A stretch of 64,000 nt of DNA from Vitreoscilla filiformis (lineage in GTDB: Bacteria; Pseudomonadota; Gammaproteobacteria; Burkholderiales; Burkholderiaceae_C). Of this stretch, positions 1-9,805 are shown in pieces. The stretch spans positions 434,001-498,000 of the forward strand of contig NZ_CP022423.1 in the NCBI RefSeq assembly GCF_002222655.1, in the 5' to 3' direction. A program made the translations under genes and the position numbers. The notes beneath the pieces were generated by a model, which saw nothing but the letters and a program-made list of their open reading frames with translations, searched no databases and had not been told where the DNA came from. How positions within the stretch are numbered: position 1 is the first letter of the stretch; each line of letters starts with the position of its first letter.

Positions 1-346
1 TGTTGGCCGAGCGCAGCCTGAGCCGCTGGGCAGATTGGCCAGCCAGCGATGGCCGCCCGGATTTGTACGCGCTGGTGCAATCGACCTGCACAGCGTGGCT
101 GGCGCGGCGCGGGGAGCGCGCAGGGTTTGTGCTGGATGAGGCGTGCTGTGTGGTGTCGGCCTATCAGCCGATGCGCCAGCGGCGCAGCAGTGCGCCTGCC
201 GACGAGGCGCCCTTGCAATTCAGCACCGTGGAACTCAGCGGCGAACTGACGGTGCAAGACCCCAGCGCTTTCACCCACATGCTGACGCACGGCCTGGGCA
301 GCGCCAAGGCGTTTGGCTGTGGGTTGATGTTGGTGCGGCGGGCACT

Positions 347-350
<4 letters not shown>
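1..350 (+). CDS. cas6e: Cas6e (CasE) CRISPR RNA endoribonuclease, C-terminal part
   Basis: This is the last ~115 codons of a gene that begins before the window (reading phase starts at base 3). Cas6e is the type I-E Cascade subunit that cuts pre-crRNA at the base of each repeat hairpin and stays bound to it. The visible part ends in GLGSAKAFGCGLMLVRRAL, the glycine-rich C-terminal motif (G-x-G-x-x-K-x-F-G-x-G-L) typical of RAMP-fold Cas6e. Directly downstream, cas1 starts at a GTG whose last bases are shared with this stop codon (GTGA), so the genes are translationally coupled. The rest of the Cascade operon (cas3, cas8e, cse2, cas7, cas5) must lie upstream, outside the window. The catalytic N-terminal half cannot be inspected. 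Confidence 0.9.
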
Positions 351-1550
<1,200 letters not shown>

Positions 1551-1644
1551 TGCGGCTCTTTAACAATCTGTTTGGGAGGGTCTAAAAATCGGTAGATTTT
1601 TGAGGGGTGAAATTTGTCTTTGGAATCATTGAGATAGGATTGGT
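1551..1644 (+). promoter_or_regulatory. CRISPR leader, including a 7-bp inverted repeat
   Basis: This 94-bp AT-richer stretch lies between the cas2 stop and the first repeat and is the expected site of new-spacer insertion. It carries a boxA-like element at 1555-1566 (separate entry) and a perfect inverted repeat AAAAATC-GGTA-GATTTTT at 1584-1601. Near the array there is only a weak sigma70-like pair, TTGTCT (1614-1619) and TAGGAT (1635-1640) with 15-bp spacing, so I am not confident of a promoter here. The array may be transcribed from a promoter further upstream. No clear IHF consensus was found. Confidence 0.75.
1555..1566 (+). promoter_or_regulatory. boxA-like antitermination element in CRISPR leader
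   Basis: The bases GCTCTTTAACAA match the core of the ribosomal-operon boxA (E. coli TGCTCTTTAACA) almost completely. BoxA RNA is bound by NusB/NusE and lets RNA polymerase resist Rho on untranslated transcripts. BoxA elements upstream of CRISPR arrays have been reported in other bacteria as protection against Rho. Here the element sits 79 bp before the first repeat of a 7.1-kb untranslated array. It can only act if transcription begins upstream of 1555, for instance within cas2 or from the cas operon. Confidence 0.7.
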
Positions 1645-4600
1645 GTGTTCCCCACGGGGGTGGGGATGAACCGAATCGTCAGGGGGTAGCACGCCCCGAG
1701 GTCTGGTGTTCCCCACGGGGGTGGGGATGAACCGAATCGTCAGGGGGTAGCACGCCCCGAGGTCTGGTGTTCCCCACGGGGGTGGGGATGAACCTTCGAT
1801 TCTGGAATTCAATTTCGGCGGCTATTTGTGTTCCCCACGGGGGTGGGGATGAACCGCGCCGTGCCGAACTGCGGCGCCGCCGCGTGCCGTGTTCCCCACG
1901 GGGGTGGGGATGAACCGAAGGGCGTGCTCACCTCGTCCGGCCCGCCGGAGTGTTCCCCACGGGGGTGGGGATGAACCGCATCCGGTCATGTACCGGTGGG
2001 CGAATCGCCTGTGTTCCCCACGGGGGTGGGGATGAACCGTATTTGCCCAAGCTCTCGCCTGTTTTTGCTGTGTGTTCCCCACGGGGGTGGGGATGAACCG
2101 CCCAGCGCCAGCAAGAGGCGCAGGCCACGCCGGTGTTCCCCACGGGGGTGGGGATGAACCGGAGCCGCCCAAGCAGGCGCCGCAGCCATCGGCGTGTTCC
2201 CCACGGGGGTGGGGATGAACCGTGACAATCTCCGCCATGACAGACACTTCTTCCGTGTTCCCCACGGGGGTGGGGATGAACCGATAAAAAAACTGCGTCT
2301 GACTGAAGTGGGTCAGTGTTCCCCACGGGGGTGGGGATGAACCGCACAGGCGCGCAAAATAAATCGGGTTGAGCAAGTGTTCCCCACGGGGGTGGGGATG
2401 AACCGACGCTGAACGACGCCCTGCGTGCTGTGCTGCCGTGTTCCCCACGGGGGTGGGGATGAACCGTTTGAGCGAGAAACCCGCTCAGTGCCGGCTGCGT
2501 GTTCCCCACGGGGGTGGGGATGAACCGGGGGTGTCGTACATTGTCAAAACGGAGCGCGGGTGTTCCCCACGGGGGTGGGGATGAACCGCGGAACGTCGTG
2601 CAGTTCGATGATCCGGCACCGTGTTCCCCACGGGGGTGGGGATGAACCGGGCAAGGAGTTCGCCCACCAGTGATGATTGACGTGTTCCCCACGGGGGTGG
2701 GGATGAACCGGTGCTGCACCTGATGATAAGTGCTGCACTTTGGTGTTCCCCACGGGGGTGGGGATGAACCGATTAGCCAGCGCCAGCGCCTCAGCATCCG
2801 ACAGTGTTCCCCACGGGGGTGGGGATGAACCGTGAACAACAGGTTTGTCAAGACTCTGATATCAGTGTTCCCCACGGGGGTGGGGATGAACCGCTCTCTA
2901 CGGCCCGCTTGCGGCGCACCGCTATCGTGTTCCCCACGGGGGTGGGGATGAACCGCCCGTACGCGGAAAATAGACCGTGCCGGTTTCGTGTTCCCCACGG
3001 GGGTGGGGATGAACCGCCCGGGCGCGCATCTGGCGCATGCGCTTGGGGGTGTTCCCCACGGGGGTGGGGATGAACCGTTATCAACCGTCGCCAAAGGATC
3101 AAAGGACGAGTGTTCCCCACGGGGGTGGGGATGAACCGCGAGGGCGGCTAGATCACTTGAGCTGGGTGACGTGTTCCCCACGGGGGTGGGGATGAACCGC
3201 ATTGATGCCCAACGCTGACGTAACCGGCCTTGTGTTCCCCACGGGGGTGGGGATGAACCGACAGTGGACGGGGCGGGCTCCGGCGTAGATGCGTGTTCCC
3301 CACGGGGGTGGGGATGAACCGCCGTCCGCATCATGCTCAACCCCGCCCACCCGGTGTTCCCCACGGGGGTGGGGATGAACCGCTTATGGAGCACGACAGG
3401 CTGACCCTTGAGCCGTGTTCCCCACGGGGGTGGGGATGAACCGGACGGCAACCATGATTAAAAACGGTCTGGAATGTGTTCCCCACGGGGGTGGGGATGA
3501 ACCGAGCGCGACGCCATCCGCAAGGCGCATGATGCGGTGTTCCCCACGGGGGTGGGGATGAACCGACGACAAGCGCTTGCGCCAAGGCGGTCGCAAAGTG
3601 TTCCCCACGGGGGTGGGGATGAACCGCTCGAAAATGCAACGCAATCGAATTCGACCACCGTGTTCCCCACGGGGGTGGGGATGAACCGCGATCATACTCG
3701 TCGGATCCCCGTTTGACCTGGTGTTCCCCACGGGGGTGGGGATGAACCGTCGTGGACTAATGCTTGATTTGTCTAACGCATGTGTTCCCCACGGGGGTGG
3801 GGATGAACCGACGTGGAGCTGTCTGGATCGCTGGAGGCCCCGGTGTTCCCCACGGGGGTGGGGATGAACCGGTGGCGCGAGCGATGCGCAACCTGCACGG
3901 GGTGTGTTCCCCACGGGGGTGGGGATGAACCGGCCATTAAGGATGCATTTGCAAACGGGGCCGGGTGTTCCCCACGGGGGTGGGGATGAACCGATGCGGA
4001 TGTGTTCCGGGCGGTCTCGCGGGCCGTGTTCCCCACGGGGGTGGGGATGAACCGCAAATCATCGCCGAAGCCAAGGCCGGTGGCTAGTGTTCCCCACGGG
4101 GGTGGGGATGAACCGCGCGAAGACGACAAGCGCCTGCGCGAAGGCGGGTGTTCCCCACGGGGGTGGGGATGAACCGTTTCGGCGGCATCATTAAATGGCG
4201 TATGGAAAGTGTTCCCCACGGGGGTGGGGATGAACCGGCCGGAGTAATTGGGCTTGTAGCCACACCGAAGTGTTCCCCACGGGGGTGGGGATGAACCGGT
4301 GTTGTACAGCCATTGCATGGCCGCTTGCCCGTGTTCCCCACGGGGGTGGGGATGAACCGATGACTTGCAAAGGGCGCGACGGGCTTGCAATGTGTTCCCC
4401 ACGGGGGTGGGGATGAACCGGATTTAATGTCATGAGCGATTCGCAGATGTCAGTGTTCCCCACGGGGGTGGGGATGAACCGTTGAATCAAGCGTGGAGCC
4501 TGAGGATTTGGCTGTGTTCCCCACGGGGGTGGGGATGAACCGGTCATGATCTTGCTCGATCCGGCGGTCGAGTTGTGTTCCCCACGGGGGTGGGGATGAA

Positions 4601-7600
4601 CCGTTGAAAACTTGAACCGCATTACTCATCATCGCGTGTTCCCCACGGGGGTGGGGATGAACCGCGTTAATGCTGGCTTCGCGCAGCCTGACAGCGGTGT
4701 TCCCCACGGGGGTGGGGATGAACCGGGCCACCGATATGGCCCGCGAGACCGCCCGGAGTGTTCCCCACGGGGGTGGGGATGAACCGCCTGACTCTGCGTG
4801 CAAGCGGGTCGTTTGAATGTGTTCCCCACGGGGGTGGGGATGAACCGTATCCGGCAGGGCGGGCGGCGATCCCGCTGTAGTGTTCCCCACGGGGGTGGGG
4901 ATGAACCGAATTGCTGGAGGCGGCATGACGCACGGCGGCAGTGTTCCCCACGGGGGTGGGGATGAACCGCAACCATGTTCGGGAAACTTGACAGCCTCAA
5001 CGTGTTCCCCACGGGGGTGGGGATGAACCGCCTTAGACCTGCTTTCGATGAACAACACCAGTGTGTTCCCCACGGGGGTGGGGATGAACCGTTCAAGAGC
5101 CAGCCGCACCTGGCGTGCCGCGTGTGTTCCCCACGGGGGTGGGGATGAACCGCAATACGTAAATCTACTGTTTGTTTACAAGGAGTGTTCCCCACGGGGG
5201 TGGGGATGAACCGGATCGGCGAGCATATCCGTCGATGGGTGCTTGGTGTTCCCCACGGGGGTGGGGATGAACCGACCCCCGGCTACCCGATTAGCCAGCG
5301 CCAGGAGTGTTCCCCACGGGGGTGGGGATGAACCGGCTTCAAAATTCAAGGCTGCGCGGGCCGTGCAGTGTTCCCCACGGGGGTGGGGATGAACCGTCGA
5401 CGATCCGCCGTAAACCGTTTGAATGCCCGTGTTCCCCACGGGGGTGGGGATGAACCGCCGGAAAAACTCGCTCATGATCGACTCAAGGGGTGTTCCCCAC
5501 GGGGGTGGGGATGAACCGTGCTGGTGGTGTTCGGGCGCGACATCGACCAAGTGTTCCCCACGGGGGTGGGGATGAACCGGCGGTGCTGGCAGTGGCGTCA
5601 AGCAGGGCGACGTGTTCCCCACGGGGGTGGGGATGAACCGACGGGACAGTCGAGGAGGATGTCGACCAGGTCGTGTTCCCCACGGGGGTGGGGATGAACC
5701 GCCTACGGCGGCGCCAATGGCGATTCATCTGCAGTGTTCCCCACGGGGGTGGGGATGAACCGGTCAGCGCGGCCTTGATGGCCGCTTTGGCTTCGTGTTC
5801 CCCACGGGGGTGGGGATGAACCGGTCATGCACGACACTGACGGTGCCGGTGGCGCGTGTTCCCCACGGGGGTGGGGATGAACCGCGCCTGAAGCGTCCCC
5901 ATGCCGATTTCGGCACGTGTTCCCCACGGGGGTGGGGATGAACCGCCCTGGTAGCTTGGCTCAGTGAGCTGAAGCCGGTGTTCCCCACGGGGGTGGGGAT
6001 GAACCGGATATGTTGTCATGAGCGATTTACTTAAACATGTGTTCCCCACGGGGGTGGGGATGAACCGCGTACCGAGCCGCCCAGGCTGGCGTGTCTGAGG
6101 TGTTCCCCACGGGGGTGGGGATGAACCGCTCGGCGGATTGGGGTTGTAGCGATGATCGGCGTGTTCCCCACGGGGGTGGGGATGAACCGCCGGCACCGCA
6201 GCCATCGGCGCGAGAATACCGGTGTTCCCCACGGGGGTGGGGATGAACCGTCGATCGTCATTGACGAGCCGGGCGACCCTGAGTGTTCCCCACGGGGGTG
6301 GGGATGAACCGCAGGTCGCAGCGACCCAGGCATCGGCCCAGGCGTGTTCCCCACGGGGGTGGGGATGAACCGCAGATGCTCTGGCCGCAGCCGCGCCGGC
6401 AGCGGTGTTCCCCACGGGGGTGGGGATGAACCGCCCGTGCCGGGCTTGTCGGGTTGAACGGCGGGGTGTTCCCCACGGGGGTGGGGATGAACCGGTCGAA
6501 GGATCGAAGAAACTCGAACTTATCCAGTGTTCCCCACGGGGGTGGGGATGAACCGCCGGATGAGTGGGTAAAATCAAAAGCAGGGACGTGTTCCCCACGG
6601 GGGTGGGGATGAACCGACACGCGCTGCATCTTGTGGCCCCTGGATTGCGTGTTCCCCACGGGGGTGGGGATGAACCGCGATTGAAGCTGCGCTGCTGGCG
6701 TCCGGTGAAGTGTTCCCCACGGGGGTGGGGATGAACCGTAGCCGTCAGGGCGCGAGACAATCCCGCTGTAGTGTTCCCCACGGGGGTGGGGATGAACCGA
6801 ATAAGACTGCAATCCGCAACGCAACACCAGTGTGTTCCCCACGGGGGTGGGGATGAACCCAGGCCAGTTTGCAAAATGCTGGAAAATAACCCGTGTTCCC
6901 CACGGGGGTGGGGATGAACCGCCGGCGGCGATTGCGTCGGCCTGAGAAAATGTGTGTTCCCCACGGGGGTGGGGATGAACCGACAAAACTGCTCGGATTT
7001 ATCCCGCAAGAGTCGTGTTCCCCACGGGGGTGGGGATGAACCGTCCTCAGTCGGGCATCCTCAAACGCCACGCCCGTGTTCCCCACGGGGGTGGGGATGA
7101 ACCGGTCATTGCGGGTACGGCACGCGCCGGGCGGATGTGTTCCCCACGGGGGTGGGGATGAACCGTCGCAGGGCGTCTCGCATGGCGGTTGTGGTGAGTG
7201 TTCCCCACGGGGGTGGGGATGAACCGTCCCAGCAAAACAACGGGCAGCCCCCAAAAGCGTGTTCCCCACGGGGGTGGGGATGAACCGATGACGGCCAAGC
7301 CTGCGCCTCTTGACATTGAGTGTTCCCCACGGGGGTGGGGATGAACCGTAAATGGAAACCTCCGCCGGCATATGGCACTTGTGTTCCCCACGGGGGTGGG
7401 GATGAACCGACCGCATGGGCATTTACGCCACGGCAGTGCAGGTGTTCCCCACGGGGGTGGGGATGAACCGGCCACAGGGCGCATTGACTTGGCGGTTGCT
7501 GCGTGTTCCCCACGGGGGTGGGGATGAACCGCCAAGATGAAGCAAGCCGATGACAAGGCCAGCGTGTTCCCCACGGGGGTGGGGATGAACCGGCCTCGGC

Positions 7601-8814
7601 AATGCCGACAAGCAAGTTCGCATCGTGTTCCCCACGGGGGTGGGGATGAACCAGCACCCCCAGAGTGGCGGCTAGGGCGAATATCGTGTTCCCCACGGGG
7701 GTGGGGATGAACCGTCCTGTGCGTCCGGGAATTTCAAGTCAGCATCGTGTTCCCCACGGGGGTGGGGATGAACCGTCCTTGGAGCGCGAACTGGGCGACG
7801 CTCGCAAGTGTTCCCCACGGGGGTGGGGATGAACCGCATTGGTGCCCGTCAGTGTAGTGTCGCGGTACGTGTTCCCCACGGGGGTGGGGATGAACCGGCG
7901 CAGCGGCGATGACTGCGGGGCAGCTCGCCGTGTTCCCCACGGGGGTGGGGATGAACCGACCCCAACAAATACGCTTACCGAGTATCGATCGTGTTCCCCA
8001 CGGGGGTGGGGATGAACCGCCCACCAGCCGGCTCAGGCACCGGTGCCGACTGTGTTCCCCACGGGGGTGGGGATGAACCGTCGATCCAGCTCACTGTCGA
8101 GCTAGACGCCGGGTGTTCCCCACGGGGGTGGGGATGAACCGGTTGCGTTGAGGGCTCACGGCCAGCGCTCGCCGTGTTCCCCACGGGGGTGGGGATGAAC
8201 CGTGCTGTGGATTTCTCCCTCTGCTGTGGATCGTGTGTTCCCCACGGGGGTGGGGATGAACCGCAGGCTGACACGTTCGCCCACCCGTCCCGCTTGTGTT
8301 CCCCACGGGGGTGGGGATGAACCGCAGTAAAATGGAATCGGAAAATGGATGCAGTGCGTGTTCCCCACGGGGGTGGGGATGAACCGCCCCCTCAAATCGA
8401 TCTGGACATAGCAGCTCGGTGTTCCCCACGGGGGTGGGGATGAACCGTGACCGCGCTGAGAAATATGGAGCGGCGGGTTGTGTTCCCCACGGGGGTGGGG
8501 ATGAACCGACGCTGGATGAGCTGATGCGCGAGCGCGAGCAGTGTTCCCCACGGGGGTGGGGATGAACCGCCCGCGAACTGCAAGCGCGGCTCGCCGCAGC
8601 TGTGTTCCCCACGGGGGTGGGGATGAACCGGCTCTTGAGGCTCAACGCGCCGCCCAGCGCCGCGTGTTCCCCACGGGGGTGGGGATGAACCGGGCGGTCG
8701 GCGCGGGACTTTCCTTTTTGTGGAGTGTTCCCCACGGGGGTGGGGATGAACCGCAACTGCAAGCCAAGATCAAAAACTTGGAGGCGTGTTCCCCACGGGG
8801 GTGGGGATGACGCC
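1645..8814 (+). CRISPR. Type I-E CRISPR array, 118 repeats and 117 spacers
   Basis: The repeat is 29 bp. It begins GTGTTCCCCAC, has a GGGG loop, and ends GTGGGGATGAACCG. The stem TCCCCAC/GTGGGGA predicts Cas6e cleavage after base 21, leaving an eight-base ATGAACCG handle, as in E. coli I-E. I followed repeat starts row by row from 1645 to 8786. The period is 61 bp throughout except four intervals of 62 bp, so spacers are 32 nt with four of 33 nt (2894-2926, 3627-3659, 8325-8357, 8631-8663). Repeats read as identical except last-base changes at 6860 (C) and 7653 (A), and the terminal repeat at 8786, which loses the match after base 25. Orientation, the leader on the cas2 side and repeat decay at the far end all give plus-strand transcription. 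Long open frames on the minus strand through the array are artefacts of the 61-bp repeat. Confidence 0.99.
1674..1766 (+). repeat. Two leader-proximal CRISPR spacers identical
   Basis: Spacer 1 (1674-1705) and spacer 2 (1735-1766) are the same 32-base sequence (starting AATCGTCAGGGGG, ending CCCCGAGGTCTG), separated by one normal repeat. These are the newest positions of the array. Either a repeat-spacer unit was duplicated by slippage or recombination, or the same protospacer was integrated twice in a row. It could also be an assembly artefact. Confidence 0.95.
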
Positions 8815-9205: not shown

Positions 9206-9805
9206 CTACCGAATACGAACCGCCCCCTTGGGCGGTTTTTGCTTTTCGTTGTAGATCAGCGAGAGAAACCACGCCTCGGTTCCGCTCGCATCGATTTTTA
9301 GGGCCGCACGGTAAGGCTTGCCGTCGATCTTGAGCAACACAAAACGGCGTTCCTGCGGCCCCGCCCAGACCTCACCGTCACGCAGCAAATCGGGCACCTT
9401 GGCGTAATCGGCCACCCCGACCTCTGGATGCTTGGCGATGTGCTCATCCAGCGATGTTCTGGAAAGCCATACCGTCTTGGCTGAGGTTCGCAAGAGTTCT
9501 CGGTCGGCATCCGTGAGGCTGGCGATGGCAAACCGATCCGGTGCACCGGGTCGGTTGAAAAAGAAGTTTTCCAGATTGTGGTTCTGCACCTTGGCATTCT
9601 CAGCCACCAGCGCGTGCCCGCTGCCAGCGTCGCCCAGTCGGCGCAAGTGGTACAGCGGGTTCACGCCACGGTTCACCACTTCATCTACGCTGCGACCGCT
9701 CATCACGTCCAGGGCGCGAGCCAGAGAAGCGAACAAGCTCAACCGTGAGCGCAGTGGCACCAGCACCAGTGTTCCCCACGAGGGTGGGGATGAACCACGA
9801 TCCAA
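9206..9805 (-). CDS. Phage-type PBECR2-like nuclease-domain protein, probably 5'-truncated
   Basis: The frame gives up to 199 residues, but its first ~13 codons translate the orphan CRISPR repeat, so the native N-terminus is missing or starts later (internal ATG at 9703). The C-terminal ~110 residues (DRFAIASLTDADRELL, then TVWLSRTSLDEHIAKHPEVG, DYAKVPDLLRDGEV, and a beta-rich end) resemble the PBECR2 domain, a Barnase/EndoU/ColicinE5/RelE-like fold often fused to Mu-type phage head-morphogenesis (gpF-like) proteins. The preceding ~70 residues would be the tail of such a protein. That assignment comes from recalled motif pattern and is moderate at best. The position between the array end and a stray repeat suggests a prophage remnant. 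It could alternatively be an intact small toxin-like protein. Confidence 0.5.
   Translation of the reverse strand: MDRGSSPPSWGTLVLVPLRSRLSLFASLARALDVMSGRSVDEVVNRGVNPLYHLRRLGDAGSGHALVAENAKVQNHNLENFFFNRPGAPDRFAIASLTDADRELLRTSAKTVWLSRTSLDEHIAKHPEVGVADYAKVPDLLRDGEVWAGPQERRFVLLKIDGKPYRAALKIDASGTEAWFLSLIYNEKQKPPKGAVRIR
9218..9240 (+). terminator. Rho-independent terminator downstream of the CRISPR array
   Basis: A perfect 8-bp stem AACCGCCC (9218-9225) / GGGCGGTT (9230-9237) with a CCTT loop is followed by a T tract (9236-9240) and further T-rich sequence. It reads on the plus strand, so it can end transcripts from the array or from the small ORF at 8807-9100. It overlaps the last codons of the minus-strand gene 9206-9805, where it is simply coding sequence. 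Confidence 0.75.
9769..9797 (+). repeat. Orphan degenerate CRISPR repeat
   Basis: An isolated copy of the 29-bp repeat, in the same orientation as the array and 983 bp past the last array repeat. It differs from consensus at two bases (a G-to-A in the loop, base 13, and A instead of the final G). It has no neighbouring repeat. It may be the original, decayed trailer repeat, now separated from the array by inserted DNA (8811-9768). Confidence 0.9.

Follow-up and report, generated by a model that had tools for sequence, protein, structure and literature searches.

A boxA-like sequence of 12 nt, GCTCTTTAACAA, is located next to a type I-E CRISPR array of Vitreoscilla filiformis, at positions 1555–1566 (forward strand) of the window, i.e., the whole stretch of 64,000 nt that was analysed. 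Its identification as an rRNA-type boxA is supported by comparison with the boxA of the host rRNA operons, with the published consensus and with the leaders of other I-E arrays. The sequence probably represents a genuine boxA at the end of the cas mRNA, which would let a Nus-modified polymerase transcribe the whole array. Antitermination of CRISPR arrays by boxA has already been published, and V. filiformis adds one more array to those bearing the element; a promising detail is that in many loci the cas2 stop codon falls inside boxA.

The boxA site and the type I-E locus of V. filiformis

The genes cas6e, cas1e and cas2e are of type I-E and each overlaps the next one. Frames similar to cas3, cse1, cse2, cas7, cas5 and cas6 are found further upstream in the genome on the same strand. 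The leader consists of the 94 nt between the cas2e stop and the first repeat. The features of the region are as follows.

3..350, + strand: 3' part of cas6e (TIGR01907, 67.6 bits), the 5' part being outside the window
347..1270, + strand: cas1e (TIGR03638, 370.7 bits)
1251..1550, + strand: cas2e (TIGR01873, 112.8 bits), with stop codon TGA at 1548–1550
1555..1566, + strand: boxA GCTCTTTAACAA, the same as the boxA in the two rRNA leaders of this genome and of a class kept in 81/120 bacterial I-E leaders
1560..1589, + strand: promoter-like pair TTAACA-18-AAAAAT overlapping boxA (9/12 matches; 1 found vs 0.3 in shuffled sequences)
1590..1597, + strand: CGGTAGAT, a GGT[AG]G element common to many aligned leaders (by leader alignment and position)
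1624..1636, + strand: weak IHF-like site, an imperfect match to the IHF consensus
1645..8814, + strand: type I-E CRISPR array with 117 spacers between 118 repeats (repeats in register, the last one degenerate)

The first-pass annotation had described a boxA-like 12-mer directly after the cas2 stop, and the sequence is indeed found 4 nt past the TGA; it starts 90 nt before the array. The annotated array of 117 spacers and ~7.1 kb is likewise confirmed, though only 116 spacers are distinct: the two leader-proximal spacers (1674–1766) are identical and represent the only repeated spacer. A lone repeat with 2 mismatches is present at 9769–9797, 983 nt past the point where the last array repeat starts, which looks like either entry of a stretch into the array end or loss of most of a second array. 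The cas3 of the I-E system is seemingly split over two overlapping frames (L218:5928-8668; positions 6–509 and 548–733 of profile NF007248), which would represent a frame break or an assembly error. CGGTAGAT is probably the upstream element contacted by Cas1-Cas2, named after that of E. coli, which a passage of the review PMC10011333 places at positions -50 to -55; the same passage has IHF at -9 to -35 of the leader.

The 10-mer core of the site, CTCTTTAACA, is present in three copies in the genome of 3,787,551 bases, one in the CRISPR leader and one upstream of each of the two 16S genes. The rRNA copies are ~150 nt upstream of these genes, and the match to the rRNA-operon boxA that had been annotated extends over all 12 letters at both. 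What sets the CRISPR copy apart from the rRNA boxA is its context, behind a translated gene and ahead of a CRISPR array. The part GCTCTTTAACA fits the gamma-proteobacterial consensus GYTCTTTAANA (PMC5725501). Within the window there is one match to GCTCTTTAACA at ≤1 mismatch, with 0.25 expected; since 20 of 100 shuffled sequences also have at least one match, the window alone proves little. A search of the window against Rfam gave nothing at the gathering score, and the predicted fold, which pairs boxA with the bases directly after it, is no better than that of shuffled sequence. NusB and Rho are encoded by the host genome.

Distribution of boxA among CRISPR leaders

Leaders were compared from 139 cas2/cas1 loci, comprising 30 drawn from a search of the family (399 genomes, 37 with a match), the best 80 named relatives of Cas1, and 29 further loci from a search of the order (399 genomes, 35 with a match, some shared with the family set). 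An array is in reach in 129 of these loci. Omission of 10 loci without an array in the DNA at hand, 3 duplicates, L091, whose leader is masked, and L136, in which the leader is not delimited, gave 124 distinct leaders, including four archaeal ones and the window itself, and hence 120 bacterial leaders. The motif GYTCTTTRAMA, built from rRNA boxes, was scored within 200 nt upstream of the array, with ≤1 mismatch allowed.

In this comparison of related leaders, which the first-pass annotation had suggested as a check, 81 of the 120 bacterial I-E leaders carry an rRNA-type boxA, window included, and 35 of these are exact; the site is absent from the other 39. At the same cut-off, all 124 leaders show two matches on the reverse strand and ~2.2 in dinucleotide shuffles. 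The presence of boxA before I-E arrays is therefore not due to chance. The control region, formed by the next 200 nt upstream, has matches in 9/123 against ~2 expected, but eight of the nine are codons conserved at the beginning of cas2 (GTCATCGTTCTTGAAAA and similar) and not leader sites. The exact consensus GYTCTTTAANA is found in 30/120 leaders, with 0/120 both in the upstream region and on the reverse strand. Because the loci are related, the leader counts do not represent independent events; when Cas2 proteins are clustered, boxA is in the majority in 36/53 clusters at 80% identity, 14/24 at 70% and 3/10 at 60%. The orphan CRISPR-2 leader of E. coli K-12, which has no adjoining cas2, contains an exact GCTCTTTAACA 98–99 nt before the array, which shows that the element is a feature of the leader and more than a part of cas2.

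Two natural contrasts are available, bacterial with archaeal I-E arrays, and I-E with other arrays within one family. Archaeal I-E leaders with boxA number 0/21, from a set of 23 loci of which two are without an array and which includes the loci of the four archaea from the main set; all 294 genomes searched are taken to be archaeal from the centre genome, Methanolobus. Archaea are not known to have NusB, and the NusB model gave no match in any of the four archaea among 14 control genomes. In the same family as V. filiformis, arrays beside a cas2 of the TIGR01573 type have boxA in 0/22, where 30 loci were taken out of the matches in 69/299 genomes, eight are without an array, and 22 were counted over 250 nt; the repeat sequence was the sole criterion for the subtype here, and an array with its leader on the far side would be misjudged. 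Compared with 81/120, Fisher tests give 1.4e-9 for the archaeal leaders and 6.2e-10 for the TIGR01573-side arrays, kinship being ignored.

Further arrays are located beside other cas2 genes in the V. filiformis genome, at ~2.50 Mb (L216) and ~2.21 Mb (L217), and all of them lack an rRNA-type boxA in their vicinity. The array beside the TIGR01573 cas2 of this genome (at least 54 repeats) has only GCTCTATAACA, with one mismatch and ~266 nt before it, and the two arrays at ~2.21 Mb (10 and 23 repeats) have nothing at ≤2 mismatches within 300 nt.

The rRNA boxes of the hosts were compared as well. The 16S model reached 9/30 genomes and a DNA query 15/30; rRNA loci were obtained from 21 genomes, the window's own included, and 19 of them have at least 140 nt upstream of 16S. 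An rRNA boxA (≤2 mismatches) is present in 16 of these 19. Letter-by-letter covariation between CRISPR boxA and host rRNA boxA was sought among them, and there is no general tracking.

The first-pass annotation expected distal crRNAs of a long array to depend on boxA. This is not reflected in array length, which shows no link to the presence of boxA (33 named bacterial loci with boxA and 13 without, all with countable arrays, p = 0.82); the median number of repeats is 35 with boxA and 30 without, in counts limited to 60 per array.

Some leaders have a different layout. Four alphaproteobacterial leaders and one from Geotalea (L107, L108, L113, L114, L059) have a boxA-like site 40–49 nt from the repeat, and in four of the five it readably lies between the GGT[AG]G element and the array instead of upstream of the element. 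L138-L140 have a different repeat family (GTCTTCCCCACG..), and their boxA-like site is as close as 21 nt to the first repeat. In L057 the bases preceding a second array are masked.

The cas2 stop codon and the proposed role of boxA

The position of boxA relative to the end of cas2 was determined in 80 distinct loci with a site at ≤2 mismatches to GCTCTTTAACA. In 70 of the 80, the site begins from 9 nt before to 20 nt after the cas2 end. The first in-frame stop of cas2 is at boxA positions 7–9 in 36/80 loci, mostly in the form GNT CTT TAA CA; this stop is TAA in 31 and TGA in 5, and the codon before it is CTT in 26, CCT in 9 and CTA in 1. Most of the enterobacterial leaders inspected have the stop 15 or 24 nt upstream, with the TAA of boxA still in frame. 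In V. filiformis the cas2e stop precedes the boxA TAA by 13 nt, and the two are in different frames. Since the stop lies within boxA in the 36 loci, any mRNA there that encodes all of cas2 carries boxA, and in V. filiformis an mRNA with the whole of cas2 plus a few more bases includes it. In the literature searched, judged by titles and partial abstracts and extending neither to most subscription papers nor to Stringer et al. 2020, no paper was found on a boxA inside the cas2 stop.

The boxA would be located where the cas operon mRNA ends and the untranslated 7.1-kb array transcript begins. Its RNA may be bound by NusB and S10 (NusE), which together with other Nus factors would produce a Rho-resistant RNA polymerase as on rRNA operons, and such a polymerase could transcribe the array to its distal end. 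In this way boxA would continue the protection against Rho from the point where translation ends and the last ribosome comes off the RNA, and the position of the site suggests that Nus factors may take over from that ribosome at the cas2 stop. The interpretation of the first-pass annotation is supported, the identity as a boxA by comparison and the presumed antitermination role by published work on other arrays. A more specific proposal, tentative and less likely than not, is that the I-E boxA is built into the cas2 end as a hand-over point: the ribosome that has kept Rho off the cas mRNA stops on or beside boxA and the Nus complex takes the array. If so, the array would amount to a 3' extension of the cas mRNA that is kilobases long, and the supply of crRNA would be tied to transcription of cas2, perhaps to its translation. 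The stop overlap makes it testable whether long arrays are fed by a leader promoter or by cas-operon read-through, and raises the question whether the last ribosome helps or hinders loading of the Nus complex.

Stringer et al. in 2020 reportedly described boxA antitermination of bacterial CRISPR arrays, which is said to counter Rho. As in those arrays, the boxA of V. filiformis belongs to the leader of a naturally occurring CRISPR array. Passages of PMC7862264 and PMC12691694 cite CRISPR-array boxA antitermination as published (Stringer 2020), and the former reports an approximately tenfold rise in precursor crRNA when boxA was placed ahead of a synthetic array. According to parts of PMC5725501, PMC10250234 and PMC12691694, boxA RNA of E. 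coli is bound by NusB/S10 and with other Nus factors leads to a Rho-resistant polymerase; one study argues that the main task of the Nus complex at rRNA is something other than antitermination (PMC4807359). The E. coli suhB boxA, as described in part of PMC5725501, is like the CRISPR site in being outside rRNA and near a site of ribosome action. It differs in that it is 6 nt from the Shine-Dalgarno sequence and represses translation initiation, whereas the V. filiformis boxA is at a stop codon. In Pseudomonas aeruginosa, termination by Rho is likewise relieved at a CRISPR leader, of type I-F, but by the sRNA PhrS, which pairs with the leader, unlike boxA (PMC6700203); the main text of that paper has no mention of boxA.

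Start of array transcription and alternative functions

For boxA to act it has to be transcribed, and the first-pass annotation was concerned that the start site must be upstream of it. This concern is largely answered for transcripts of the cas operon, because a full cas2 mRNA holds boxA. The further suggestion of a promoter in cas2 needs correction in that such a promoter is not required: cas operon transcription that reads through would suffice to include boxA. Nor does synonymous-site conservation away from the gene ends lend it support, in a weak test on 71 loci where observed/expected identity is 0.98–1.15 over most of the gene and which a degenerate promoter would escape. The ratio is raised at the cas2 start (1.48) and in the last codons overlapping boxA (1.82, 410 pairs); in the final cas2 block it is 1.72, from 4 pairs.

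A promoter within the leader, downstream of boxA, may drive most array transcription, with boxA serving cas read-through only or being a minor relic. This is considered improbable, though it is the alternative that survives best. The start of E. coli K-12 CRISPR-1 is given as ~50 nt before the first repeat in a passage of the review PMC10011333, and the boxA-like sequence GATCTTTAATA of that leader starts ~89 nt before the array, i.e., upstream of this start. A start like that of CRISPR-1 in V. filiformis would mean that only read-through transcripts carry boxA. The CRISPR-2 start in the same passage is ~95 nt before the array, which is the edge of its boxA. A TATAAT is found between boxA and array in the leader of L057, but a scan of positions 1000–1800 in V. 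filiformis found no promoter-like pair wholly between the two, and a relic would not be retained so widely. The favoured reading presumes that an appreciable part of array transcription comes through cas2.

A less probable alternative is that the letters of boxA are the -35 (TTAACA) of an array promoter with its -10 some 17–18 nt downstream, so that transcription would start at ~1596 and boxA would be outside the RNA. The pair TTAACA-18-AAAAAT is the only promoter-like pair in positions 1000–1800, and the implied start, ~49 nt before the array, is similar to the CRISPR-1 distance in the review passage (PMC10011333). As the cause of conservation this role is rejected. In 55 distinct leaders only 5/165 hexamers at 16–18 nt have at least four -10 matches, several other spacings being higher, and because -10-like hexamers are not enriched there, a -35 fails as a general explanation. 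The GYTC ahead of the hexamer is also conserved, the same letters before the 16S genes of the genome are left unexplained, and absence from archaeal leaders is explained less neatly than by a genuine boxA.

It is very unlikely that the site acts as DNA in spacer integration, with Cas1-Cas2, IHF or some other factor binding to it. It does lie in the leader beside known integration elements, but across leaders boxA is anywhere between 21 and 162 nt away from the first repeat, which speaks against a fixed role at the DNA level in integration. The site also occurs upstream of the GGT[AG]G element in some leaders and downstream of it in others, and it is missing from archaeal I-E leaders.

That the conservation reflects no RNA signal but only the last codons and stop of cas2 is scarcely credible: the stop is inside the motif in 36/80 loci but elsewhere in 44/80, V. 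filiformis among them, and non-coding copies, such as that in E. coli CRISPR-2 without an adjoining cas2, refute coding constraint as a full explanation. The leucine codon is CTT in 26/27 while CTT makes up 9% of Leu codons in the same genes, a bias that is overstated because the loci were chosen for similarity to boxA; without this selection, CTT TAA is the final codon pair in 23/123 cas2 genes.
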